Of a stretch of DNA of 64,000 nucleotides, positions 43,166 to 54,751 are shown piece by piece; positions within the stretch are counted from its first letter, which is position 1; each line of letters opens with the position of its first letter. The notes under the pieces are model-generated. The model did no database searches and had not been told where the DNA came from. It worked only from the letters and a program-made list of their open reading frames with translations. The stretch covers positions 1,178,001 to 1,242,000 of the forward strand of contig NZ_QRGB01000001.1 in assembly GCF_003449035.1 (NCBI RefSeq), given 5' to 3'. This DNA comes from Pedobacter indicus. Its GTDB lineage: Bacteria > Bacteroidota > Bacteroidia > Sphingobacteriales > Sphingobacteriaceae. Position numbers and translations under genes: made by a program.

Positions 43166-43888
43166 ATGTTTGGAATGAAGAGGGTAGTCGTATTTTTCTT
43201 GTTCATCCTACTCGTGTCTGGAGCGCAAGCGCAGACACTGAAAGGGATTGTTATGGAGTTGGATAGTTCGAAACCTATTCAGCAAGTTGAAGTAAAAAAT
43301 GTGCGTACCGATGTGCTTGTTGAAACGACAGCATCAGGAGAGTTTTCGATAGATGCCAATGTGAACGATCTATTGACATTTGGTTATCCCGGATATCGCT
43401 TAGATACCCTGGTTGTAGTTGACCACGAGCTGAAGCGGGTCTATATGACACCGTTGAAAGACTTTAACATCCTGGAAGATGTTGAAATAACCGATTTGTC
43501 TGATGTACAGCTGGAAGAAGAGATTCGGCTTGCGCGGGAGCGTGGCAAATCGGTTCACACGGCTCAAGGTGGAGGGATTGCGATTTCTCCGTCCCGGTTA
43601 TTTGGGAGGGAGGCGAAGGAAGCCCGAAGGCGTTATGAATTGTTGATTGAAGAAAAAGAGAACCGGGTAATTAATGCTAGGTTTAATGAAGGTATTATCA
43701 CACCGATTATACCTCTAAAAGGGCGTGATTTGGACTTGTTTATGGTGAAATTTCGACCGTCTTATGAATTTGTTGAGCAGTCGGACGATGAACAGATCCG
43801 TTTGTATATCATGGATTCCTACAAAGAATTCAAGAATATGAGTCAGGCCGAAAAGGATAAAATTAAGTTAATTAAACAAACAGAGTGA
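43166..43888 (+). CDS. exported protein with carboxypeptidase-regulatory-like domain
   Basis: The 240-residue product has a signal peptide ending SGAQAQ, then a beta-sandwich segment of the CarboxypepD_reg-like kind (LKGIVMELDSSKPIQQVEVKN..ASGEFSIDAN..FGYPGYRLDTLVV). A charged helical C-terminal half (SRLFGREAKEARRRYELLIEE) follows, with no enzyme motif. Proteins of this type are common in Bacteroidota with unknown function. The ATG at 43175 would serve equally well as start. Its 3' end overlaps folC by 17 bp in convergent orientation. Confidence 0.65.
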   Translation: MFGMKRVVVFFLFILLVSGAQAQTLKGIVMELDSSKPIQQVEVKNVRTDVLVETTASGEFSIDANVNDLLTFGYPGYRLDTLVVVDHELKRVYMTPLKDFNILEDVEITDLSDVQLEEEIRLARERGKSVHTAQGGGIAISPSRLFGREAKEARRRYELLIEEKENRVINARFNEGIITPIIPLKGRDLDLFMVKFRPSYEFVEQSDDEQIRLYIMDSYKEFKNMSQAEKDKIKLIKQTE

Positions 43889-45200
43889 GTGCCTCTGCGA
43901 CAATAAAAGTACTGCCACCGATAAAAATCAAATCTTTTTTACCTGCATTTTGCAGGGCAGATTGAACCGCATCAGTAACCGACGCGTAAGCTTGGCCCTG
44001 AAGTTCAGAAGCCTGGCTTAACCGGGCTAGTTCGCATGCAGGAAGGGCGCGATCGAAAGCCGCATTGCAGAAGTAATAGGTGGCATTTGTCGGTAAAAGT
44101 GAAAGGAGTGCTGTTATATCTTTATCTTTCATAATCCCTATCACCATATGGAGGTGTTGGTATTTTGCGTCGTGTAAGTTGCTTATAACTGCCTTCCAAC
44201 CGGCTTCATTATGCCCTGTATCACATATAACGCGTGGTTCTTTCCTGAGTGTTTGCCAGCGTCCCATGAGTCCGGTTAAATCCTTAACATGAGCAAGCGC
44301 GTCAACTATATTGGTTTTTGAGATTTGATAACCTTGATGATTTAACTCGTTAACAGCTGATAGGACAGACAAGATGTTCTTTTCTTGATAGCTACCGGGC
44401 AGATCCAGCTTAATGTTGAAGGTTGTTGGGAGTGAAGTTGAAGCTGCTTCTGCAGTTTTATGTTTAAGATTTTCTGCCTGTAAGCTTAGATATTCATCAT
44501 TTTTATTCTCAACTGTGACTGTCCATTCATCTTGCGCAAAAATAACTTCGCTGCCGGTGTTTGCGGCGGTGTCAAGAAAAATACTGGTTGTATCTTGGTG
44601 TTTCTCGCCGATAATAACAGGGGTTCCAGGTTTGATGATCCCCGCTTTTTCGCGCGCTATCAGCGGTAATGTATTGCCCAACATATGGGTATGATCGAGG
44701 CTGATATTGGTAATAACCGATAGTGTAGGATGGATAACGTTGGTAGAATCTAACCGCCCACCTAAGCCTGTTTCGATAATCGCGATATCTACATTGTGTT
44801 CGGAAAAGTGATGAAACGCCATAGCAACCGTAACCTCAAAAAAGGATGGTTGAAGAGTTTCGATAAAATCTTGCTGTTTTTCAACGAAGTCCACAACCTC
44901 TTGTTGGGATATCATTTCTCCGTCAATCCGTATCCGTTCTCTAAAATCTAAGAGGTGAGGCGAGGTATAGATTCCTGTTTTGTAGCCAGCCTGCTGAAGT
45001 ACTGCGGCTAGCATATTGGAAACAGAACCCTTTCCATTCGTTCCAGCGATGTGAATTGACCTGAAGTTCTTTTGTGGATTGCCTAAGGCTTCGCAGATCT
45101 TTAAGGTATTCGATAAATCCTTTTTTATAGCGGCATCGCCTATCCGACTAAACAGAGGAAGTCTGTTATAGAGATAATCCAGAGTCTCTTGGTATTGCAT
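43872..45200 (-). CDS. folC: bifunctional dihydrofolate/folylpolyglutamate synthase
   Basis: The 442-residue Mur-ligase-type enzyme has the P-loop AGTNGKGSVSNMLAAVL and IYTSPHLLDFRERIRIDGE. It also has ETGLGGRLDSTNV and the C-terminal ligase domain (ICDTGHNEAGWKAVISNL). It adds glutamates to folates and may also make dihydrofolate from dihydropteroate. It is the last gene of the leftward TonB/ExbBD cluster, 18 bp after tonB, a genomic companionship rather than an obvious functional one. Confidence 0.94.
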   Translation of the reverse strand: MQYQETLDYLYNRLPLFSRIGDAAIKKDLSNTLKICEALGNPQKNFRSIHIAGTNGKGSVSNMLAAVLQQAGYKTGIYTSPHLLDFRERIRIDGEMISQQEVVDFVEKQQDFIETLQPSFFEVTVAMAFHHFSEHNVDIAIIETGLGGRLDSTNVIHPTLSVITNISLDHTHMLGNTLPLIAREKAGIIKPGTPVIIGEKHQDTTSIFLDTAANTGSEVIFAQDEWTVTVENKNDEYLSLQAENLKHKTAEAASTSLPTTFNIKLDLPGSYQEKNILSVLSAVNELNHQGYQISKTNIVDALAHVKDLTGLMGRWQTLRKEPRVICDTGHNEAGWKAVISNLHDAKYQHLHMVIGIMKDKDITALLSLLPTNATYYFCNAAFDRALPACELARLSQASELQGQAYASVTDAVQSALQNAGKKDLIFIGGSTFIVAEALTLFV

Positions 45201-45218
45201 GGATTAAGCTTGATTAAG

Positions 45219-46037
45219 CTATTTCAACTTGAAGTTAAAGACAATGACACCCGTTTGTACAGGAGGTGCTTTTTCGAGACGGTTTAATTGTGCGCCAAGT
45301 GCTGCCCGTTCGCATTTTTCATATAGGGCATTATTCGAAATTGTAGTACCGCGGACACCTGCTCTGGCAGATATAATTTTTCCATCACGGTCTACGCGGA
45401 CTTCAACAGCTATTTTTCCTGACTGTTGGCCGTTGTCTTCAATTTGAGGAGCAACAACAAAGCGCCTGTTTTCCAAACTAAGAGCCGCATCACCAAAGCC
45501 TGATCCTCCTTCGCCATAATCGGCAGCAAGAGGGTCTCCTTGCCTGCTCCCTTGATTTCCAGCTGTAGTGCCTGTTCCATCACCTGTTCCCGATGCATTA
45601 TTTTTCTTGCCGGTATATAAGGCATTGGGGTTTACGGTAGGTTTACTTTCTTTTTTTTCTGGTGTTGCTACCGGCGTTGGGTTTGGGCTGTTTTCCTTCG
45701 TGACAACTGCGGGTGCATCTTCCATATCTTGAGTAACGATGGCTTTGTCGCTTGTTTGTTGCGAGGCTACGGGCTCAGGAGATGCATCGGGAACGACACG
45801 GTCTGGCCTCGTTTCATTAGCATTCGGATCCATCGAAGGCTCGTCAATACTCATATAATCATCACCCATACCAACTGGTGAGGTTCCATAGTTTACAATG
45901 ATGCCTCCAGTTCCAAATTGAGGCATCGGATTCCCAAGGATAATAAAGTAGCTAATAATAAAAAGAACTACCATGATTCCCGCCGAAATCCCAATTGCTT
46001 TTGGGTAATAATTGTCCTCTTGTTGGTGAAAACTCAT
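45219..46037 (-). CDS. TonB-family energy transducer
   Basis: The 272-residue protein has one N-terminal membrane helix (residues about 13-35: KAIGISAGIMVVLFIISYFIIL). A long Pro/Thr/Asn/Glu-rich periplasmic spacer (about 40-190) leads to a C-terminal TonB-like domain (SGKIAVEVRVDRDGKIISARAGVRG..YEKCERAALGAQ). It carries proton-motive-force energy from ExbB/ExbD to outer-membrane partners. It is directly preceded by exbD (12-bp gap). A TolA-like role is also possible from gene order. Confidence 0.9.
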   Translation of the reverse strand: MSFHQQEDNYYPKAIGISAGIMVVLFIISYFIILGNPMPQFGTGGIIVNYGTSPVGMGDDYMSIDEPSMDPNANETRPDRVVPDASPEPVASQQTSDKAIVTQDMEDAPAVVTKENSPNPTPVATPEKKESKPTVNPNALYTGKKNNASGTGDGTGTTAGNQGSRQGDPLAADYGEGGSGFGDAALSLENRRFVVAPQIEDNGQQSGKIAVEVRVDRDGKIISARAGVRGTTISNNALYEKCERAALGAQLNRLEKAPPVQTGVIVFNFKLK

Positions 46038-46049
46038 CTTATTAAATCC

Positions 46050-46457
46050 TTATTGTGGTTTTGGTTCGGTTGCCAATACCAATTTTATCCGTAATTGATT
46101 AGCCGCATCCATTACTTCGATCACATCTCTGATAGAAACACTCCGATCGACATATAGCATAATTGTCAGTTCTTCTCCCGGTTGAACGTATGCCTGTAAA
46201 GCAGGTAATAAATTCTCTACGGGTACAGGTTCCTTCTCTATGAAATATTCCAGGTTTTCAGTGATTGACACTGTAATCGTCTTCTTTGCCAACGACTGCT
46301 CGCCCGAGCTGGATCTTGGCAATAAGAGTTTTACTACCTGTGGATTGGCCACAGCCGAAGCTAAGAGGAAGAACAGCATCAAAAAGAACATGATATCGTT
46401 CAATGCTGCGGTGTGCACCTCTGCTTTCGGCTTTTCCCTTCTTCGTCTAATTTTCAT
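46050..46457 (-). CDS. ExbD/TolR-family biopolymer transport protein
   Basis: The 135-residue protein has a basic cytoplasmic start (MKIRRRREKPKAEVHTAAL). One membrane helix carries the motif LNDIMFFLMLFFLLASAV with the conserved Asp, then a periplasmic domain (MLYVDRSVSIRDVIEVMDAANQ). It forms the proton channel with ExbB. Located between exbB and tonB. Confidence 0.93.
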   Translation of the reverse strand: MKIRRRREKPKAEVHTAALNDIMFFLMLFFLLASAVANPQVVKLLLPRSSSGEQSLAKKTITVSITENLEYFIEKEPVPVENLLPALQAYVQPGEELTIMLYVDRSVSIRDVIEVMDAANQLRIKLVLATEPKPQ

Positions 46458-46509
46458 TTACTTGCTATTATAACAAAGTTACTAAATTCTAAATAAAACA
46501 AATTGACCG

Positions 46510-47205
46510 CTAAGATACAGGCTCATCAAGGAGGTCGATAAACTCAATTGCATCTGTTTCCATACGAAGGATGATACGTTCAACCATTTCATTTAGGATA
46601 TGATAACCAATATAGGCGATGATACCGATAATTAATCCGGTTGCTGACGATACCATTTTTACATAGAGTCCGCCAGATACGGTACCAATATCAATCACAC
46701 CAGCGAGCTCCACTTCATGGAAAATTGCAATTACACCGATAATCGTACCAACAAACCCCATCATCGGAGCGATCCCGGCAATAATTCCTAAAATATTGAT
46801 GTTCTTTTCAAGTTTAGCAACTTCAAGTTTACCCACATTTTCAATAGCACCTTCAATTTCTTTAATTGGGCGACCGATTCTTAGAAGTCCTTTCTGGAGC
46901 ATACGCCCGAGAGGGCCGTTGTTGTTTCTGCAAATTGCTAATGCTGATTCCAGTTTTCCGGAGAGGATGCTTTGTTTCACCTGAACCATCAGATTCTTTT
47001 CAAAGCGGTTTGCTTTGCGGATGGTGAGGTATCTTTCAATGAAGATAACTAAGCCTATTAAGAGCAAAAGTGCCAAGGGTAGCATTACCCACCCTCCTTT
47101 AATTAGGAGATCAATAAAACGCAGTTTTTCTGGTTCTTGAACTACTTGTTCTGCCGCCGTCATCATCGTATCCAATGGTAGGGTGGTGTCAATTTGTAAT
47201 AGCAT
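46510..47205 (-). CDS. ExbB/TolQ/MotA-family proton channel protein
   Basis: The 231-residue inner-membrane protein has three helices: WVMLPLALLLLIGLVIFIERYL, then two near the end (ILGIIAGIAPMMGFVGTIIGVI; KMVSSATGLIIGIIAYIGYHIL) with the MotA/ExbB Gly/Pro pattern. It energises TonB by proton flow. It lies 15 bp after the HU-SPOR gene and 52 bp before exbD. Confidence 0.94.
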   Translation of the reverse strand: MLLQIDTTLPLDTMMTAAEQVVQEPEKLRFIDLLIKGGWVMLPLALLLLIGLVIFIERYLTIRKANRFEKNLMVQVKQSILSGKLESALAICRNNNGPLGRMLQKGLLRIGRPIKEIEGAIENVGKLEVAKLEKNINILGIIAGIAPMMGFVGTIIGVIAIFHEVELAGVIDIGTVSGGLYVKMVSSATGLIIGIIAYIGYHILNEMVERIILRMETDAIEFIDLLDEPVS

Positions 47206-47220
47206 AGGTGTTATTATTCT

Positions 47221-48306
47221 TTAGTTTTGATTATTGATATTATAGTTCTTATTTTCCCATAGCCAAGCTTCTTTGGCTAATTCTTCTCTTACCCGTGAAA
47301 GTGATTCAGATGCTTCTGCCGAGGTATTGAACGTAGCATAACTTATCTTATTCATATTACCGGGTCTATTATTTTGCAATATATAAACATTATAGCCTTT
47401 TGCATTTGTTTTGTTAACAAAATCTTTTGCTTCTGTCATGGTTTCGAATGCAGCGATAATGATTTCATATCTTCCGCTAGGTTTTCTGATGATTTCTTCG
47501 GGATTGTTGTTCGCAACGGCGTCGGTGACGGTTGATGTGTCCGATACGGTCAGTGCGGTGGCACCTTCTCCTTGTAGCGTTGAAAGAGAGTCTTGATCGT
47601 TCTCTGTCTGAGCCGTAGCAACCGGTTGGTTTATTGCCGGCTGTTCCTTTCCTCTTGGCATCAGAAACCATATTCCCGCAATTATGATGCATGCGGCAAT
47701 GCCAATAACAGGCCAAAGCCATCTTTTGGAGTCTCTTTCTAATGCTGAATCATCCAGCTCATTGTCTAACACAATCGGTTCGAATGTATCTTCATCAACT
47801 GTTTCGGTCTCTGAATTATCTGTATTGTTGGTTGTTTCAATTTCAGAAGAAGTTTCTGCTACTAAAGCTTCTAAGCTTTTTTCCTGTTTTCTTATGGGTA
47901 GTATTTCGGCTTCCTCGATAGGGTCGTATAAGCTAAACTCTGATGTTTCTTCCTCGGGAATGATGACTAGCTCGTCTTGAGGATTTACGAAGCAGTCGCC
48001 TAATCCCTCGATATACGCTTTCTGTTTGCTGGAAATACAATCTTCTAATTTATCGACTATTGACGATGAAACCTTTTTACTTTCGCTCAGAGATAAATTG
48101 TGATTCCCCGTTATAAACTCTGTAAGAGCATTACGGTCAATCTTCTGATTGCTAATAAGAAGTGCGTGTGAGGGCGGAATGAAAAGCTGTTTGTCTTCAT
48201 CAAAATAAGCTGGCCTATATTCTTTTTTGAACATGCCAACGCCAGGCAGATAAAATGTTTCTTTATTTGCTAGTTCTCTTCTTATAATTGAACCTATATT
48301 GACCAT
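47221..48306 (-). CDS. HU-CCDC81-like and SPOR domain membrane protein
   Basis: The 361-residue protein has two CCDC81-type HU-like halves in residues 1-120 (GSIIRRELANKETFYLPGVG; KQKAYIEGLGDCFVNPQDELVIIP) on the cytoplasmic side. One membrane helix at 195-216 (RWLWPVIGIAACIIIAGIWFLM) and a C-terminal SPOR domain at about 283-361 (GRYEIIIAAFETMTEAKDFV) complete it. SPOR domains bind septal peptidoglycan stripped of side peptides, so the protein may connect the cytoplasm with the division site. It lies in the TPR/TonB cluster, 23 bp after the barrel gene. Confidence 0.88.
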   Translation of the reverse strand: MVNIGSIIRRELANKETFYLPGVGMFKKEYRPAYFDEDKQLFIPPSHALLISNQKIDRNALTEFITGNHNLSLSESKKVSSSIVDKLEDCISSKQKAYIEGLGDCFVNPQDELVIIPEEETSEFSLYDPIEEAEILPIRKQEKSLEALVAETSSEIETTNNTDNSETETVDEDTFEPIVLDNELDDSALERDSKRWLWPVIGIAACIIIAGIWFLMPRGKEQPAINQPVATAQTENDQDSLSTLQGEGATALTVSDTSTVTDAVANNNPEEIIRKPSGRYEIIIAAFETMTEAKDFVNKTNAKGYNVYILQNNRPGNMNKISYATFNTSAEASESLSRVREELAKEAWLWENKNYNINNQN

Positions 48307-48329
48307 CTTTGCGACGCAAAGTTATTTAT

Positions 48330-50042
48330 TTAAAATGAATAATTTAATCCGCCGATAATATTGAAACCTAGATGAGGATAGTAGAGGTATTTCTCATACG
48401 CATCGTTCACTAAGTTGTTAGCTTGAACGAAAATGCCAAACTGATTGGTGATTCGATATTCCGCGCCGGCATTCAGGTTAACGAATGCTGGGATCTTCCG
48501 TACTGAGAATGGAGGTTCACCGCCGAAATCTATCAGTGGATCGAGGTACCTGGCGGAAGTTTCTCCGTTAAAGAAAACCTCTCCTGTTAAAAATAACTTT
48601 TCGCTAATATTAATTCTGGCGTCAGACGATATGCGAACCGTTGGCATAAACCAAGGCTCATCTTCTGTAGATAGTTTGTAATCGCTGATATTTAACTTTC
48701 CTCCAATATTTACAGTCTGAGATACACGCACGTTGATCTCGCCTTCAAAGCCTGAAATTGTGGTGGCATCTTCGGTGCCTGGATCGTAAATGACGTCAAA
48801 GCGTGTTGGGTCATCGATGTTGTTAACAAATAACGGCATATCTTCGATTTTACGGTAGAAGAAATTAGCTTTGTAACCAAAAGTAGCTCCTAAATTACCT
48901 TTTACCCCTGCGAAAATATTCAAACGATCAACCATATTATTTATATTGATGTTTTCGTTCAAATAAGGATTGTCTTGCGCCAGCGTACGTAATGACGTTT
49001 TTGTAACATCTCCATTAACGCCCCCGAATATCGTCGCAAATTGTGGGACAATATCTAATTCGAAATCGGCTGAAGGGAAGAGGTTGGTCCGGCTGGTATC
49101 ATTACTTTCGGCGACGAAATTGGCTCCCAAAGTCAATTTGTAGTTTTCTCCTTGGAAACGGATATAGGGATTTAATCGCACTATATTATTCGGTGTGCTG
49201 TAATCGGTTCCTTTCACTGTCGTCAAGTCGGCCGATACGTTTGCTCCGAGGTTAAACGCTTGAATAGTTTTATTGAAATACCCACTGATCGCAAATGAAT
49301 TTTCTTTTGCATTGAACGCATCACTGAATAGATAGGCATCTGCCTTCAATGAATAACTCACATCATCTGCGTTTGGATCATAATTTTTTAGCAACTCACC
49401 TGAAAGGTAGAAATCATTGAAGGTTTGATTTTCTGGAGTAAGTGCAGCGGCGTAAAGCTCAGGTATATAACCATAAAACGCAGTTCCATAACGATTATAA
49501 CCCACTTCGCCTTTTAAGGTAAAAGCATCCATAAAACGTTTTCCAAATACGCCTATCTTCTGTTCAGAAAACTTTTGGCCTTCCAAATCGCCTTTCTGAC
49601 CAAGATGCTTAGCGTAAAAGCCGGCTTGGTAGATATCTGCTGTGCCAGTATTCACGTACACCTCACCGAGAATCGTATTAAAATTGCCTATACCCAATTT
49701 CGCATAGTTATTTGTCATGATGTCAGGGCGTGTCGATTGTACCTCCTGAATATTCAACTGTCCCATACCCGAAGGCAGGTTAAGTCGCTTATCCATGATG
49801 TTATAGTTCAGCGACGGTTGAAATGTGCGTGTGTCACTGAGGTTGGGACTGCGCCGGATTTTAACCGCGTCCGCCAGAATCGGTCGATAGTCGCGTATAA
49901 CTTCAACTTCTTCGATTGTGGTCGATTGTTGCGTATTGCTTTCAGGTGTCTTCGTTGTATCTACCTGCGCAAAGGTGTTCAGCGACAAAACACCCAATCC
50001 GATCATAAATGTATATTTAAGCATTGAAATCTTCAATATCAT
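48330..50042 (-). CDS. TonB-receptor-like outer-membrane beta-barrel without plug domain
   Basis: The 570-residue product has a signal peptide (LKYTFMIGLGVLSLNTFAQ). It continues with a short TIEEVEVIRDYRPILADAVKI segment that resembles a TonB-box/linker, and then goes straight into beta-barrel strands ending in the aromatic GFNIIGGLNYSF. A normal plug domain of about 130 residues is not visible. Start at the ATG at 50042 or at 50024; the latter gives a more usual signal peptide. It is four bases from the TPR gene stop, so translation is probably coupled. Confidence 0.8.
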   Translation of the reverse strand: MILKISMLKYTFMIGLGVLSLNTFAQVDTTKTPESNTQQSTTIEEVEVIRDYRPILADAVKIRRSPNLSDTRTFQPSLNYNIMDKRLNLPSGMGQLNIQEVQSTRPDIMTNNYAKLGIGNFNTILGEVYVNTGTADIYQAGFYAKHLGQKGDLEGQKFSEQKIGVFGKRFMDAFTLKGEVGYNRYGTAFYGYIPELYAAALTPENQTFNDFYLSGELLKNYDPNADDVSYSLKADAYLFSDAFNAKENSFAISGYFNKTIQAFNLGANVSADLTTVKGTDYSTPNNIVRLNPYIRFQGENYKLTLGANFVAESNDTSRTNLFPSADFELDIVPQFATIFGGVNGDVTKTSLRTLAQDNPYLNENININNMVDRLNIFAGVKGNLGATFGYKANFFYRKIEDMPLFVNNIDDPTRFDVIYDPGTEDATTISGFEGEINVRVSQTVNIGGKLNISDYKLSTEDEPWFMPTVRISSDARINISEKLFLTGEVFFNGETSARYLDPLIDFGGEPPFSVRKIPAFVNLNAGAEYRITNQFGIFVQANNLVNDAYEKYLYYPHLGFNIIGGLNYSF

Positions 50043-50045
50043 GAC

Positions 50046-53000
50046 TTATTCTTTGTTATTAAGTTTGTCTAAACGTTCGGTAGCTTCGGGGATGATGTCA
50101 TCCTCTTTGTTTTCATAATTTTCTAAGATGCTCTCCAATGTACTTTTTGCCTGGAACTCATCTTTCAGAGCAACGTACGTGTCGGCTAAGAGTATAAAGC
50201 TTTTGGCTACCCAGTAATCATGCGATGGCATGTTTTTAATCAGATCAAAAGCGGTAGCCTGAGCAGCCTTAATCCCTTTTTCTTCAAACTGCAGACGTCC
50301 AAAATTATATTTAGCTTCAGCGCCTACGACAGTTTGACTACCGTTGGCTGCAGCCTCGAATTCTTTTTTAGCAGCGGCCTTGTTTTCTTGAGCTAAATAT
50401 GCTTTTCCAGAATACAAATGTGCTCGCGCGATATCCTCTTCAGAAGATTTTTCATAGCCTTTTACGAAGCCTGCATATTTTAACGTCTCATCCATTTCAC
50501 CCATCATGTAGTATGATTTCATAAGGTTGTTTACAGCAAAACCGTAATTGGCTACATAGTCAGAAGTTAATTCAAGTTTTTTCAGCGGAGCGATTGCTTC
50601 GTTGTATTGCTCCAGATCTAAGTGTAATTGAGATACGCTGATTAAGGTACGTTCCGTATAAGGGCTCGTCCAGTCATTCAGAATAATGTTATAATCATGT
50701 AAAGCTTCTTTCGGTTTTCCTGTTTTCCAAAGGCTTTCAGCTCGGATAAAGCGAGCATATTTCTCTTGGATTGGTTTTGGAAACTTATCGAAATATGCGT
50801 TGATTGCTTCAACTGCAGCTTCGTATTCGCCACGAGCAAATAGTCCGTTTGCCGCTTGGAATGTAATATTATCTTGCTCTGCAGTTGAAAGGTTACCAAT
50901 ATTTGTCGTTTGCGCATAGCTTAGATAGCCTTGCGCATCACCTTGGTCTATGTAAATGTTCTGTATGGTTTTCAGAGCTAACTTCGCTTCATCGGTTGTA
51001 GAATAGTCTTCAACAACACGTTGAAATGTTTTTATTGCTTCGTCATTCTCCTGTTTATTATATTGAACGAGTCCAATCGTAATCAAAGCTCTTGGTACAT
51101 AGCTACTGCGAGGATATTCTTCAATCATTTCTTGAAGTCCGGTAATCGAAGTTTCATAATCCCCCTGCAAAAAGCGCGAATATGGGATCTCAAATGCAGC
51201 GTCATCTGAGTAGTTGGAATTAGGGAATTGTTCTTGAAGCTCGATCAGTGTCGCGATCTTAGTCTCGATATCACCTTGTAAGCCTTGTATAATACCTCTT
51301 TGATAGAGCGCATAATCTTCACCCTTCACTTTTGCACTGATCAATTTATTGTACTGTGTCATTGCCCGGTCGTAGCTTCTCAGCGAGAAGTAAGAATCTC
51401 CCAAACGGGCAATCGCATCGTTACGGGTATTTTGATCAGAATCACTACTTGCTAAGAAACGTTCGAAGTAGTTTGCTGCTGTTGAAAATGATGAATTTCG
51501 GTAAGCTGCATAGGCAAGGGCATAATTAGCATAGCTGTAAACTGATGTGCTTTTTGCAACTGGATAACGAAGGAATTTATCAAAATTAACGACAGCTTCA
51601 CCGTATTTACGCACCTCGTACATAGCTTCAGCTTTCCAGTAAGTCGCTAATGCTTGTATATTGGGGTCAGCAGGCACACTTTCCGAACGCATAAATAATG
51701 AAATTGCATTTTCAAATGCACGCTCGTTGTAATGTTCTAAGCCTCTGAAATATGTAACTTTTTGGTAGGCGGCGTTGGCCTCCCTACCCCGGTTAGGGAT
51801 TGTTTCTAATATATTGACAGCCTCACTGTAATTTTTGGTCGTTAATAGAATCTCTGCAAGCAAAGTCTTCGCCTCATCTGTATTTTCTGAATTCGGATAG
51901 GTTTTTAGGAAACTTTGCGTCGCCTCTAACGCCACTTGATGGAACTCGAGTTCGTATGATAGTTTTGCATAATTCAGTGCACCTTCTTCTTGAAGCTCGG
52001 GATCGAAATCAAGTTTAGAAGCTCTAAAGAAGGCATTACGGGCGCTTTGTTTATTGCCTTTTTGCAAGAAAGCATCACCTAGGGTAATCATACCAGCCTG
52101 ATAGTATGCTTCAGGTTGGTCCATTTTCTCAAGTTCAGCAATCGCTTTGTCGAGATCTCCTTCAGTATAGGCTATATAACCGATGTTGTAGGTGTCCTGA
52201 TTGCTTTGTGTCGCACCCTGATCTGCCGCCTGATACCTATCATAGTAGATCTTGGAGTTTTCTAAATCCCCTTTTGAGAAATATGTCGCACCGACAATAC
52301 GGAGCAGGTCGGTTTCACTTTCTTGTTTCGTTGTTTCTAATATTGGAATTGCATAAGCTAGTACATCATCATAGCGTTTGTCCAAGTAATAGAGAGATGC
52401 GATGTAGTAGGGGTAGCTGCTTTCAAATTGTTTTGATCCTTTTAATCTTTCAAATTCTGATAAAGCTGTTTTGTATTCGCCATCTAAGTATGCTAAATAA
52501 GCATAGTAGTAAATAGCAGACTCATTATAAGGAGAGCGTTCGTTTTTAAGACGTTCAAGCATAGGTTTGGCCTCTTGAAGCCGATCCTTTTTGAAATACG
52601 AATAGGCGAGTTTGAAACGGTACTCAGAACTTTCTAGGCCACTCAAAGCACCTGCATCTAACTTCTCAAACCATTCAATAGCTTTATCGTAATTCTTTTG
52701 ACCAAAATAAGATCTTCCCACCTGGTAATATGCTGCTTTGGTACTAGAACTTGTCGGATAATCTTTGATGAATTTAAGGAACAGGTTTTCTGCATCTATA
52801 TTGCCCATTTCTAAGGCGCATACCGCTTGGTAAAAACGGGCTTTTTCTTTCAATAAGCTTGCCTGAGCCTGTTCATCTTCTTGAATAACAGATCTTATCC
52901 GTGTGTTCTCAACTTTGTCGAACTGTTTTGAGGCAGCAACATATTTTCCACGCTCGTACAGTTCCATTCCACTTTTATAAGCTTCGTCTATCTCTTGCCA

Positions 53001-53075
53001 GGCTCCTTGCTGTGCATAAGCTCCGCCAGCAAGTAAGCTAAGAGCAAGACTGATTTGAGTGAATTTTTTAAACAT
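50046..53075 (-). CDS. large TPR-repeat exported protein
   Basis: The 1009-residue protein has a signal peptide (FTQISLALSLLAGGAYAQ) followed by about 20 tetratricopeptide-like repeats over nearly its whole length. Examples are YYQVGRSYFGQKNYDKAIEWFEKL, YFSLRSYDRAMTQYNKLI, and PRALITIGLVQYNKQENDEAI. It is a periplasmic scaffold. It heads the leftward cluster with the barrel, HU-SPOR, ExbB, ExbD, TonB and FolC, much as CpoB/YbgF (also TPR) accompanies Tol-Pal in proteobacteria; that parallel is inference. Confidence 0.9.
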   Translation of the reverse strand: MFKKFTQISLALSLLAGGAYAQQGAWQEIDEAYKSGMELYERGKYVAASKQFDKVENTRIRSVIQEDEQAQASLLKEKARFYQAVCALEMGNIDAENLFLKFIKDYPTSSSTKAAYYQVGRSYFGQKNYDKAIEWFEKLDAGALSGLESSEYRFKLAYSYFKKDRLQEAKPMLERLKNERSPYNESAIYYYAYLAYLDGEYKTALSEFERLKGSKQFESSYPYYIASLYYLDKRYDDVLAYAIPILETTKQESETDLLRIVGATYFSKGDLENSKIYYDRYQAADQGATQSNQDTYNIGYIAYTEGDLDKAIAELEKMDQPEAYYQAGMITLGDAFLQKGNKQSARNAFFRASKLDFDPELQEEGALNYAKLSYELEFHQVALEATQSFLKTYPNSENTDEAKTLLAEILLTTKNYSEAVNILETIPNRGREANAAYQKVTYFRGLEHYNERAFENAISLFMRSESVPADPNIQALATYWKAEAMYEVRKYGEAVVNFDKFLRYPVAKSTSVYSYANYALAYAAYRNSSFSTAANYFERFLASSDSDQNTRNDAIARLGDSYFSLRSYDRAMTQYNKLISAKVKGEDYALYQRGIIQGLQGDIETKIATLIELQEQFPNSNYSDDAAFEIPYSRFLQGDYETSITGLQEMIEEYPRSSYVPRALITIGLVQYNKQENDEAIKTFQRVVEDYSTTDEAKLALKTIQNIYIDQGDAQGYLSYAQTTNIGNLSTAEQDNITFQAANGLFARGEYEAAVEAINAYFDKFPKPIQEKYARFIRAESLWKTGKPKEALHDYNIILNDWTSPYTERTLISVSQLHLDLEQYNEAIAPLKKLELTSDYVANYGFAVNNLMKSYYMMGEMDETLKYAGFVKGYEKSSEEDIARAHLYSGKAYLAQENKAAAKKEFEAAANGSQTVVGAEAKYNFGRLQFEEKGIKAAQATAFDLIKNMPSHDYWVAKSFILLADTYVALKDEFQAKSTLESILENYENKEDDIIPEATERLDKLNNKE

Positions 53076-53236: not shown

Positions 53237-54178
53237 TTACCCCCTTTTGGCAGCTAGTAAATACAATACAGCCATTCGGACTGCTACTCCATTTTCAACC
53301 TGCTCTAGAATGATCGAGTGTTTACTGTCGGCTACATCGCTGGTAATTTCCACACCTCGGTTGATGGGCCCGGGGTGCATAATGGTAATTTCCCGATCTA
53401 AGGAATCCACTATTTTTTTATTCAAACCATACAACATAGAATATTCACGTAAAGAAGGGAAATAAGAGATGTCTTGTCGTTCTAATTGAATTCGGAGCAT
53501 ATTAGCCACATCGCACCAATTGAGTGCCGCCATAAGATTATGCTCTACTTTTACGCCCAGTGACTGGATATGCTTTGGGATAAGTGTAGTTGGTCCGCAA
53601 ACCATTACTTCTGCACCTAGCTTCTTTAAACAAAGAATATTTGACAGCGCTACACGGGAATGAAGGATATCGCCGATAATCGCTATCTTTTTCCCAGCAA
53701 CATCACCCAGGTGCTCACGAATCGAGAATGAATCAAGTAATGCTTGTGTAGGGTGTTCATGAGCTCCATCTCCAGCATTAACAATTTGAGCATCAACATG
53801 GTTCTTTAAAAACACGCCGGCACCGGGATAGGGGTGGCGCATGACAATCATATCAACTTTCATCGCCAAGATATTGTTGACTGTGTCAATCAACGTTTCA
53901 CCTTTGCTAACGGATGAAGAAGACGCAGAGAAATTCACAATATCAGCCGATAATCGCTTTTCCGCTAGTTCAAAAGAAAGACGGGTTCGGGTCGAGTTTT
54001 CAAAGAAAATATTCGCAATTGTGATATCTCTTAGTGATGGGACCTTCTTGATCGGTCTGTTCAAAACATCTTTAAACGTCTGTGCAGTGTCCAGGATTAA
54101 GTTGATATCTCCCTGAGTCAGATCTTTTATCCCTAATATGTGTCTGGTACTGAGTTGTTCTGCAGCTGCCTCTTTCAT
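53237..54178 (-). CDS. pyrB: aspartate carbamoyltransferase catalytic subunit
   Basis: The 313-residue enzyme forms carbamoyl aspartate in pyrimidine synthesis. It shows the carbamoyl-phosphate loop NSTRTRLSFELAEKRL, the SSSVSKGET loop, HPYPGAG, DGAHEHPTQALLD, and PGPINRGVEI. It lies 21 bp downstream of pyrR in one operon. Confidence 0.97.
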   Translation of the reverse strand: MKEAAAEQLSTRHILGIKDLTQGDINLILDTAQTFKDVLNRPIKKVPSLRDITIANIFFENSTRTRLSFELAEKRLSADIVNFSASSSSVSKGETLIDTVNNILAMKVDMIVMRHPYPGAGVFLKNHVDAQIVNAGDGAHEHPTQALLDSFSIREHLGDVAGKKIAIIGDILHSRVALSNILCLKKLGAEVMVCGPTTLIPKHIQSLGVKVEHNLMAALNWCDVANMLRIQLERQDISYFPSLREYSMLYGLNKKIVDSLDREITIMHPGPINRGVEITSDVADSKHSIILEQVENGVAVRMAVLYLLAAKRG

Positions 54179-54199
54179 GCTCTTTTTACTTAGACGACT

Positions 54200-54751
54200 T
54201 TAATTTTTCTCTTCATTTACTAATAAGACCTGATCCTTTTTATCTGTTTCCGCCCAACTTACAATTACTTTCTGTGAATTGATGGAATCTATCGGTAATC
54301 CAACATAGTCAGGTTCAATCGGCAAGTGCCTTGCAAATCTTCTGTCTACTAAAACAAGCAACTCGACTTTTTCAGGACGTCCGAAAGATTGGATAGCATC
54401 TAACGCAGAACGGATGGTTCTGCCTGTCCATAACACGTCGTCCACAAGAATCACTTTTTTGTTTTCTACGATAAAGTTCATGTTCGTGCTGCTCGGGGAA
54501 AGAGGAAGGCTCCCCTTCATTCTAAAGTCATCGCGAAAAAAAGTAATATCCAAATCGCCAGATGGTACATTTTCAACTTTAAGAATCTTTTTCAATTCTT
54601 GAACGATTCGGTTGGCAAGGTAGACACCACGAGGTTGTATGCCTATAATAACCGAATTTGAGAAATCCTGATGATTTTCAATTAATTGATGACAAAGGCG
54701 TTGGATTGTTATTGTGAATTTGGCTCCGCTTAACAGAATTGAATTTTGCAT
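54200..54751 (-). CDS. pyrR: PyrR-type uracil phosphoribosyltransferase / pyr regulator
   Basis: The 183-residue protein has a PRTase fold with the PRPP loop VILVDDVLWTGRTIRSALDAI and an upstream GIQPRGVYLANRI segment typical of PyrR. In Firmicutes PyrR binds mRNA attenuators; no attenuator-like anti-terminator is seen upstream here, so regulation in this organism may be enzymatic or different. Gene order pyrR-pyrB is conserved. Confidence 0.92.
   Translation of the reverse strand: MQNSILLSGAKFTITIQRLCHQLIENHQDFSNSVIIGIQPRGVYLANRIVQELKKILKVENVPSGDLDITFFRDDFRMKGSLPLSPSSTNMNFIVENKKVILVDDVLWTGRTIRSALDAIQSFGRPEKVELLVLVDRRFARHLPIEPDYVGLPIDSINSQKVIVSWAETDKKDQVLLVNEEKN

Follow-up and report, generated by a model that had tools for sequence, protein, structure and literature searches.

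A gene cluster conserved across Bacteroidota as a candidate Tol-like envelope device built from Ton parts

Outer-membrane stabilization and constriction in Bacteroidota without an identifiable Tol-Pal system was raised as an open question in 2025 (available part of PMC12204202). The described systems closest to the gene cluster considered here include Tol-Pal (TolQ-TolR-TolA-TolB-Pal-CpoB) and the Ton system with its TonB-dependent receptors. This cluster occupies positions 43872-53075, on the - strand, of a 64,000-nt stretch of the Pedobacter indicus genome (the whole stretch is hereafter ‘the window’ and the genome G000). It encodes, in transcription order, a tetratricopeptide repeat (TPR) protein, an outer-membrane beta-barrel without a plug, a protein joining HU-like and SPOR domains (HU-SPOR), an ExbB, an ExbD, a TonB-like transducer and FolC (table 1). 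The TPR protein, barrel, SPOR protein, motor and transducer very probably form one functional unit, and we put at about one in two the probability that this unit is a Tol-like, proton-driven envelope device built from Ton parts and acting at constriction.

The cluster shares with Tol-Pal a proton motor (its ExbB being nearer to TolQ), a bitopic transducer whose linker is long and disordered, a TPR protein, a peptidoglycan-binding part and a conserved multi-gene order. Unlike Tol-Pal, it has an integral plug-less barrel as outer-membrane partner, a transducer whose fold is predicted to be nearer to TonB, an HU-SPOR protein that has no Tol-Pal counterpart, and a TPR protein of approximately 1000 amino acids (aa) versus the 273-aa CpoB-like protein of locus L326 of family f16. 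Moreover, it encodes no TolB, and none of its seven proteins contains a Pal/OmpA domain in Pfam; the cluster is therefore not Tol-Pal. A preliminary description of the locus had compared it to a Tol-Pal parts list, a comparison which stands for a Tol-like, conserved association of motor and TPR protein, and falls for TolB and Pal, for the TonB-like transducer and for the receptor-like barrel. With Ton and its receptors, the cluster shares its ExbD, the TonB-type C-terminal fold of the transducer, a barrel of TonB-dependent transporter (TBDT) type and a TonB-box-like motif. However, this barrel is encoded with TPR, SPOR and motor genes, the motor is apart from the Ton motor of the genome, and the barrel, as modelled, is not a receptor, as the plug is missing.

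Three further comparisons are relevant. HU-CCDC81 proteins with SPOR (PF18174/PF18175), reportedly covered by a 2017 survey of HU/IHF clades, show the same pairing as the HU-SPOR protein, whereas the cluster sets this pairing within a conserved motor-barrel-TPR context. PorE, a proposed outer-membrane/peptidoglycan tether of Bacteroidetes, has likewise been put forward to fill the place of tol-pal in this phylum, but is described as a fusion lipoprotein (CpoB-TolB-carboxypeptidase-Pal; available part of PMC12204202). The vWA force transducers encoded with TPR and TolQR genes (same part of PMC12204202) similarly combine a TPR protein, a TolQ/TolR-like motor and a new transducer, although with a vWA transducer and another gene set. 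The cluster is not discussed in that part of the article, where ‘HU domain’ has 0 occurrences, and open-licence literature, searched by title and start of abstract, yielded no description of it, an absence that is no proof of novelty.

The barrel matches no Pfam or NCBIfam model at E 0.001. Its AlphaFold2 model (33 sequences; predicted local distance difference test (pLDDT) 79; predicted template modelling score (pTM) 0.75) displays a large barrel, with strands between residues 112 and 569, and a disordered tail (residues 12-109, pLDDT<50). No plug domain is found in this model, nor any plug match in the Pfam scan. TonB-dependent receptors make up all of the best 50 of 796 Foldseek rows (BtuB: E 1e-17, query TM-score 0.59), and the sequence profile of the barrel reaches TBDT barrels in the PDB at E 1e-7. 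The predicted fold is thus of TBDT type. Behind the signal peptide, the tail opens with a TonB-box-like pattern, residues 46 and 48 being hydrophobic in 61/61 aligned barrels (the window, 40 from the same class and 20 from other classes), an agreement that the alignment itself can favour; we consider this pattern to be a putative TonB box. Both the lack of a plug and the TonB-box-like start had been proposed in the preliminary description, and the model and the alignment, respectively, bear them out.

The motor was compared with known structures through profiles, in which the ExbB of the cluster scores higher against TolQ (66 bits) than against ExbB (45 bits). A Thr of the window ExbB is aligned with TolQ T145; the position of TolQ T178 is a Ser in the window and a Thr in all six rows compared with it, which come from clusters, folC-linked sets and f16; and D21 of ExbD, aligned with TolR D23, is invariant in 13 rows. 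The E. coli residues TolQ T145 and T178 and TolR D23 are important for the proton path. Together these alignments point to a TolQ/TolR-type proton motor with conserved channel residues. Three MotA_ExbB matches exist in the window genome, namely an ordinary ExbB-ExbD-ExbD-TonB set (L177), the cluster motor and ZorA. A tree of 64 ExbB rows gathers the ordinary Ton ExbB proteins into one clade (13 rows, support 99/96) and places on the opposite side the cluster motors, including the exbB-exbD-tonB-folC sets of genomes with a split cluster; six cluster rows from other classes (L136, L191, L192, L194, L202 and L204) branch near the base with no firm placement, and long E. coli branches leave the deepest joins unsure. 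On this tree, the cluster motor appears as a lineage separate from the ordinary Ton uptake motor. As side observations, the ZorA match stands in a row with ZorC and ZorB matches (L179:2986-6652, - strand), forming a Zorya-type anti-phage system, and two loci of family f5 (L166 and L168) carry two exbD genes between exbB and tonB.

The transducer also lacks any Pfam or NCBIfam match at E 0.001. AlphaFold2 predicts a transmembrane-type helix (residues 3-35), a mostly disordered stretch (residues 38-182) and a folded C-terminal part, for which TonB domains are the best Foldseek matches (target TM-score up to 0.71, versus 0.48 for TolA). The modelled C-terminal domain is hence closer to TonB than to TolA. 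In three f16 genomes, the sequence profile of the transducer also matches a protein encoded immediately before TolB. The complete proton-driven motor of the preliminary description is consequently recovered, with ExbB, ExbD and a transducer combining helix, linker and TonB-type fold, the last through a match of weak E-value. L178:4716-5531 (- strand) encodes a protein of 271 aa that seems, by eye, to start with a signal peptide and that shares, in its C-terminal part, 59% identity (103 columns) with the C-terminal region of the transducer; it could possibly be a decoy or a regulator.

The TPR protein, whose length and repeats agree with the scaffold described previously (open reading frame (ORF), Pfam and NCBIfam TPR models), begins with a signal peptide ending ...AYA/QQ and has no lipobox, both read by eye. 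The NCBIfam model TIGR02795 (YbgF/CpoB) matches it with 185.8 bits (cut-off 90.1) in five stretches of this 1009-aa repeat protein; an identification as CpoB from this match alone was rejected, as the match is probably a generic one to the repeats of so long a TPR protein. Another TPR protein, 851 aa long, is encoded in the window genome (L176:7311-9866; G000:C1:1829310-1831865). Near its N terminus, this paralogue carries the TonB-box segment of the barrel (51% over 39 columns, E 7e-10), and most of the remainder is 54% identical to the cluster TPR protein. Genome G002 also has a TPR paralogue with such a segment (G002:C1:1170325-1172736). The presence of the segment on a TPR paralogue suggests a portable docking element.

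The third protein pairs, as had been proposed, HU-like and SPOR domains. Pfam detects PF18174 (HU-CCDC81_bac_1) at residues 1-49, only just above cut-off (26.7 bits versus 26), and PF00216 at residues 58-108 (22.5 bits versus 22.4), the HU fold being marginal in the window and more strongly predicted in relatives. The DNA-binding beta-arm motif seems absent by eye, and DNA binding is thus not to be assumed. HU-CCDC81_bac_1 was matched in 36/49 genomes of the same class; among 37 SPOR proteins of other classes, Pfam SPOR was found in 37/37 at E<=0.01 and the HU model PF00216 in 19/37. Separate ORFs of 64-65 aa that match the HU/SPOR profile lie between the barrel and SPOR genes in three loci (L145:10119-10316, L148:9535-9732 and L150:9714-9908), as if the first HU domain were here a stand-alone small protein. 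The control genome of Bacteroides ihuae also matches HU-CCDC81_bac_1, together with TolB_N; the latter match may correspond to a PorE-like protein.

Conservation was assessed in 198 genomes of the phylum, 49 of them from the same class. The barrel lies directly downstream of the TPR gene in 105 of the 135 genomes having the TPR protein and a listed barrel match (some barrel matches being partial). The 30 others are all of families f22 (25/25) and f20 (4/4), plus one f4 genome, and in the 16/16 loci fetched from f22 and f20 the barrel gene is followed by SPOR, exbB, exbD and transducer genes. Across these loci, the barrel is accordingly tied to the TPR protein, to the motor, or to both. Within the class, the barrel and the TPR protein are found in 49/49 genomes and a transducer match in 47/49, even where the genes are split; indeed, all three are kept in 18/18 genomes of f4, a Flavobacteriaceae-like family (the ExbB of L156 is 90% identical to that of a Croceitalea contig; f9 is Hymenobacter-like). 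In 40/40 same-class loci fetched, the barrel gene comes after the TPR gene, with one intervening ORF in six f4 loci, and farther downstream are found an HU/SPOR-type gene (19 loci), exbB-exbD (13), tonB (14) and folC (13).

Forty loci from other classes were also examined, 20 selected from barrel matches (L136-L155, two of them partly via a nearby transducer match) and 20 from genomes with adjacent TPR and barrel genes, each family contributing one or two (L190-L209). In 37/40 the barrel gene is followed by that of a SPOR protein (19/20 and 18/20, respectively, with intervening ORFs in three of the latter), and exbB-exbD is present in 31/40 (17/20 and 14/20). The full order TPR-barrel-SPOR-ExbB-ExbD-TonB occurs in eight of L190-L209, one of them with an extra ORF. 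Furthermore, when the best 80 ExbB relatives in named contigs are considered, TPR, barrel, SPOR and motor genes stand side by side in 14 (Pedobacter, Sphingobacterium, Mucilaginibacter, Daejeonella, Hymenobacter and two metagenome-assembled genomes), one has barrel and SPOR, and two have SPOR only. The cluster is therefore not a random assemblage in related genomes, an outcome that would have told against the preliminary description: the TPR-barrel and barrel-SPOR-ExbB-ExbD orders recur in many families and in other classes.

TolB was scored with TIGR02800 because Pfam TolB_N is too insensitive (9/198 genomes, and 0/49 in the same class), and partial propeller matches elsewhere were not counted. 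Near-full-length TolB was detected in 43/198 genomes, all of family f16 (43/43, 41 of them above the curated cut-off), and no TolB above the cut-off was detected in the 155 other genomes. Conversely, the large TPR protein (profile search, E<=1e-40) was retrieved in 142/198 genomes, i.e. 0/43 of f16 versus 142/155 of the others; no TPR-bearing genome has a TolB above the cut-off. Among five f16 loci fetched, four have genes resembling those of TolQ, TolR and TolA ahead of the TolB-sized gene, the fifth being cut by the contig end. In Pfam, locus L326 shows, in order, a TonB/TolA C-terminal domain, a propeller, two OmpA proteins and the 273-aa TPR protein, i.e. a tol-pal layout.

The SPOR domain, the missing TolB and the separate lineage of the motor lead us to propose a Tol-like constriction device. 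SPOR domains bind denuded septal glycan in studied bacteria, and it is this domain alone that suggests, by its sequence, a role in division. The contacts among the components, their location at the septum and their part in constriction are proposed as follows. Proton flow through the TolQR-like ExbB/ExbD motor would drive the TonB-like transducer, whose C-terminal domain would span the peptidoglycan and pair with the TonB-box-like tail of the plug-less barrel. As this barrel has no plug to open, the pull would be transmitted to the outer membrane itself. The TPR protein would be a periplasmic adaptor, and the HU-transmembrane-SPOR protein would position the motor where SPOR binds peptidoglycan, most likely at amidase-denuded septal glycan. 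Outer membrane, wall and inner membrane would thereby be coupled in a Tol-like manner while the cell constricts.

Several observations weigh against this proposal. First, putative TolB-Pal fusions, as well as PorE, were also found in Bacteroidetes in 2025 (available part of PMC12204202). The contrast in TolB distribution opposes one clade to the rest, represents one evolutionary change and counts once; it is also confounded by the type IX secretion system (T9SS), as f16 lacks SprA as well (43/43), and both the TPR protein (E<=1e-40) and a TolB above the cut-off are missing from 13 genomes. Besides, the window genome encodes elsewhere a 167-aa Pal-like OmpA protein with a lipoprotein-like start. 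The check proposed in the preliminary description, co-occurrence of the cluster with the absence of tolB and pal, favours it in that near-full-length TolB and the TPR protein (E<=1e-40) never share a sampled genome, but the contrast is that of one TolB-bearing clade, and the Pal-like protein is present in the window genome. Among the parts themselves, the ExbD profile reaches 62 bits with ExbD in the PDB but 38 bits with TolR, and the match of the transducer to TonB folds is weak by E-value (0.014 at best). The HU-SPOR pairing is not constant either: of 19 same-class HU/SPOR-type proteins (the window and 18 of the 19 loci with such a gene), Pfam detects SPOR in 11 and HU-CCDC81_bac_1 in 13 (E<=0.01), the f8 proteins having no HU part and three f2 proteins stopping before SPOR. 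As regards gene order, the f4 parts are at separate loci, L136 has no SPOR protein beside the barrel, none is labelled in L207 and L208, and 63 of the best 80 ExbB relatives have no barrel, SPOR or TPR gene within four ORFs on each side (some contigs ending there). Finally, a promoter-like match (46474-46502, - strand) falls inside the ExbB-ExbD gap, and a single transcript is therefore putative.

Other explanations would account for some of these data. The best of them, which we nevertheless hold to be unlikely, is a machine for outer-membrane lipid or protein homeostasis with no special role in division, in which motor and transducer would move or gate cargo, lipid or other, via the TPR protein and barrel, and SPOR would only be an anchor to peptidoglycan. 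Several named loci indeed have a large gene (approx. 1450-1590 aa) upstream of orthologous exbB-exbD-tonB, a position held in some of them by a gene of 1475-1588 aa, and three of the three genes tested were TamB (PF04357, 138-214 bits; table 1). As TamB serves outer-membrane lipid and protein homeostasis, this other neighbour of the motor is also an envelope-homeostasis gene. However, in other classes the barrel gene is usually followed by that of a SPOR protein (37/40 loci), pointing to the septal wall, and no lipid-binding family was found among the seven proteins in Pfam and NCBIfam scans.

An export device is more doubtful still. The TPR protein and an open barrel would form a motor-energized pore, similarly to PgaA, AlgK-AlgE or Slam, e.g. 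for surface lipoproteins, whose exporter in Bacteroidota is to our knowledge not settled. A TPR protein with an open barrel is a known export theme, and the barrel is modelled without a plug. The 400-450 surface lipoproteins reported for B. thetaiotaomicron (available part of PMC12578637) also count in favour of this possibility. Yet the best 50 of 796 Foldseek rows are TonB-dependent receptors rather than Omp85, Slam or AlgE, no substrate genes adjoin the cluster within the window, and SPOR and HU domains do not suit export.

The two remaining explanations seem highly improbable. An accessory of T9SS or gliding would agree with the detection of SprA in 140 of the 142 TPR-bearing genomes and its absence from all 43 f16 genomes, and with the match of the PorW/SprE model to the TPR protein (53.9 bits, far below the cut-off of 250), but the window genome and G002 retain the whole cluster without any SprA match at E<=1e-30, and 13 SprA-positive genomes have no TPR protein at E<=1e-40. 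SprA was matched in the other 153 non-f16 genomes. As for ordinary TonB-dependent nutrient uptake through an unusual receptor, the TBDT-type barrel, TonB-box-like motif and ExbB/ExbD/TonB set that recommend it are outweighed by the missing plug, the retention in 49/49 same-class genomes, the separate ordinary Ton motor and the linkage to SPOR and TPR genes.

The arrangement of the locus is as described previously, i.e. seven closely spaced leftward genes with folC last, all retrieved as ORFs and separated, from the TPR gene to folC, by gaps of 3, 23, 15, 52, 12 and 18 bases. A gap of 161 bases separates the TPR gene from pyrR and pyrB (53237-54751, also on the - strand), which precede it and are likewise just upstream of the TPR gene in 4/5 loci of the same family. 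FolC adjoins the motor in same-class and named loci and carries no label in the maps of other classes; it looks like a co-located passenger rather than a working part. FolC, pyrR and pyrB were dropped as candidate working parts since they are not conserved neighbours, as were the genes of approximately 340 aa directly before the TPR gene (f8) or the barrel gene (f22), whose neighbourhood is not conserved; the latter are HolA-like and YbhN-like by sequence look only. Promoter scans gave results near chance (31 versus 26.8 expected; whole window, 6 versus 3.9 expected), and 15 terminator-like sites were detected versus 8.9 expected (standard deviation 3.1), including one where folC ends (43898-43880, - strand).

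Table 1. Features of the Pedobacter indicus cluster (window positions) and TamB genes of three named loci (locus positions).
Feature	Position	Strand	Basis and remarks
TPR protein, 1009 aa	50046..53075	-	many Pfam TPR models; opens the conserved unit; probably periplasmic
Predicted outer-membrane beta-barrel without plug domain, 570 aa	48330..50042	-	AlphaFold2 model, Foldseek, profile
TonB-box-like segment of barrel, residues 43-66, IEEVEVIRDYRPILADAVKIRRSP	49845..49916	-	alignment of 61 barrels
HU-like domain(s)-transmembrane segment-SPOR protein, 361 aa	47221..48306	-	Pfam; transmembrane segment by eye
HU-like (CCDC81-type) N-terminal region, residues 1-108	47983..48306	-	Pfam, barely above cut-off
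SPOR domain, residues 276-342	47281..47481	-	Pfam PF05036, 29.4 bits, cut-off 21
ExbB/TolQ-type proton-channel subunit, 231 aa	46510..47205	-	Pfam PF01618 MotA_ExbB, 78 bits
ExbD/TolR-type subunit, 135 aa; motor Asp = residue 21	46050..46457	-	Pfam PF02472, 91 bits
TonB-like force transducer (predicted), 272 aa	45219..46037	-	AlphaFold2 and Foldseek
TonB-type C-terminal domain of transducer (predicted), residues 190-271	45225..45470	-	AlphaFold2 and Foldseek
folC, 442 aa	43872..45200	-	TIGR01499 367.7 bits, cut-off 162.65; Pfam Mur ligase domains
TamB gene upstream of exbB-exbD-tonB	L245:3250-7770		one gene between
TamB gene upstream of exbB-exbD-tonB	L266:5018-9445
TamB gene upstream of exbB-exbD-tonB	L286:4638-9404

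In any case, with six genes conserved phylum-wide, this cluster is a concrete candidate for the envelope question of Bacteroidota, and it suggests that a barrel of receptor type may act as a mechanical anchor and not as a transporter. More tentatively, and with less confidence than in the Tol-like device itself, we propose that Bacteroidota replaced Tol-Pal with a machine made from Ton parts, in which a TolQR-like motor would haul a plug-less barrel by its TonB box and an HU-transmembrane-SPOR protein would tie together cytoplasm, septal wall and motor. If this is true, these bacteria would constrict their outer membrane through the pull on an integral barrel, and not through the movement of a lipoprotein tether.

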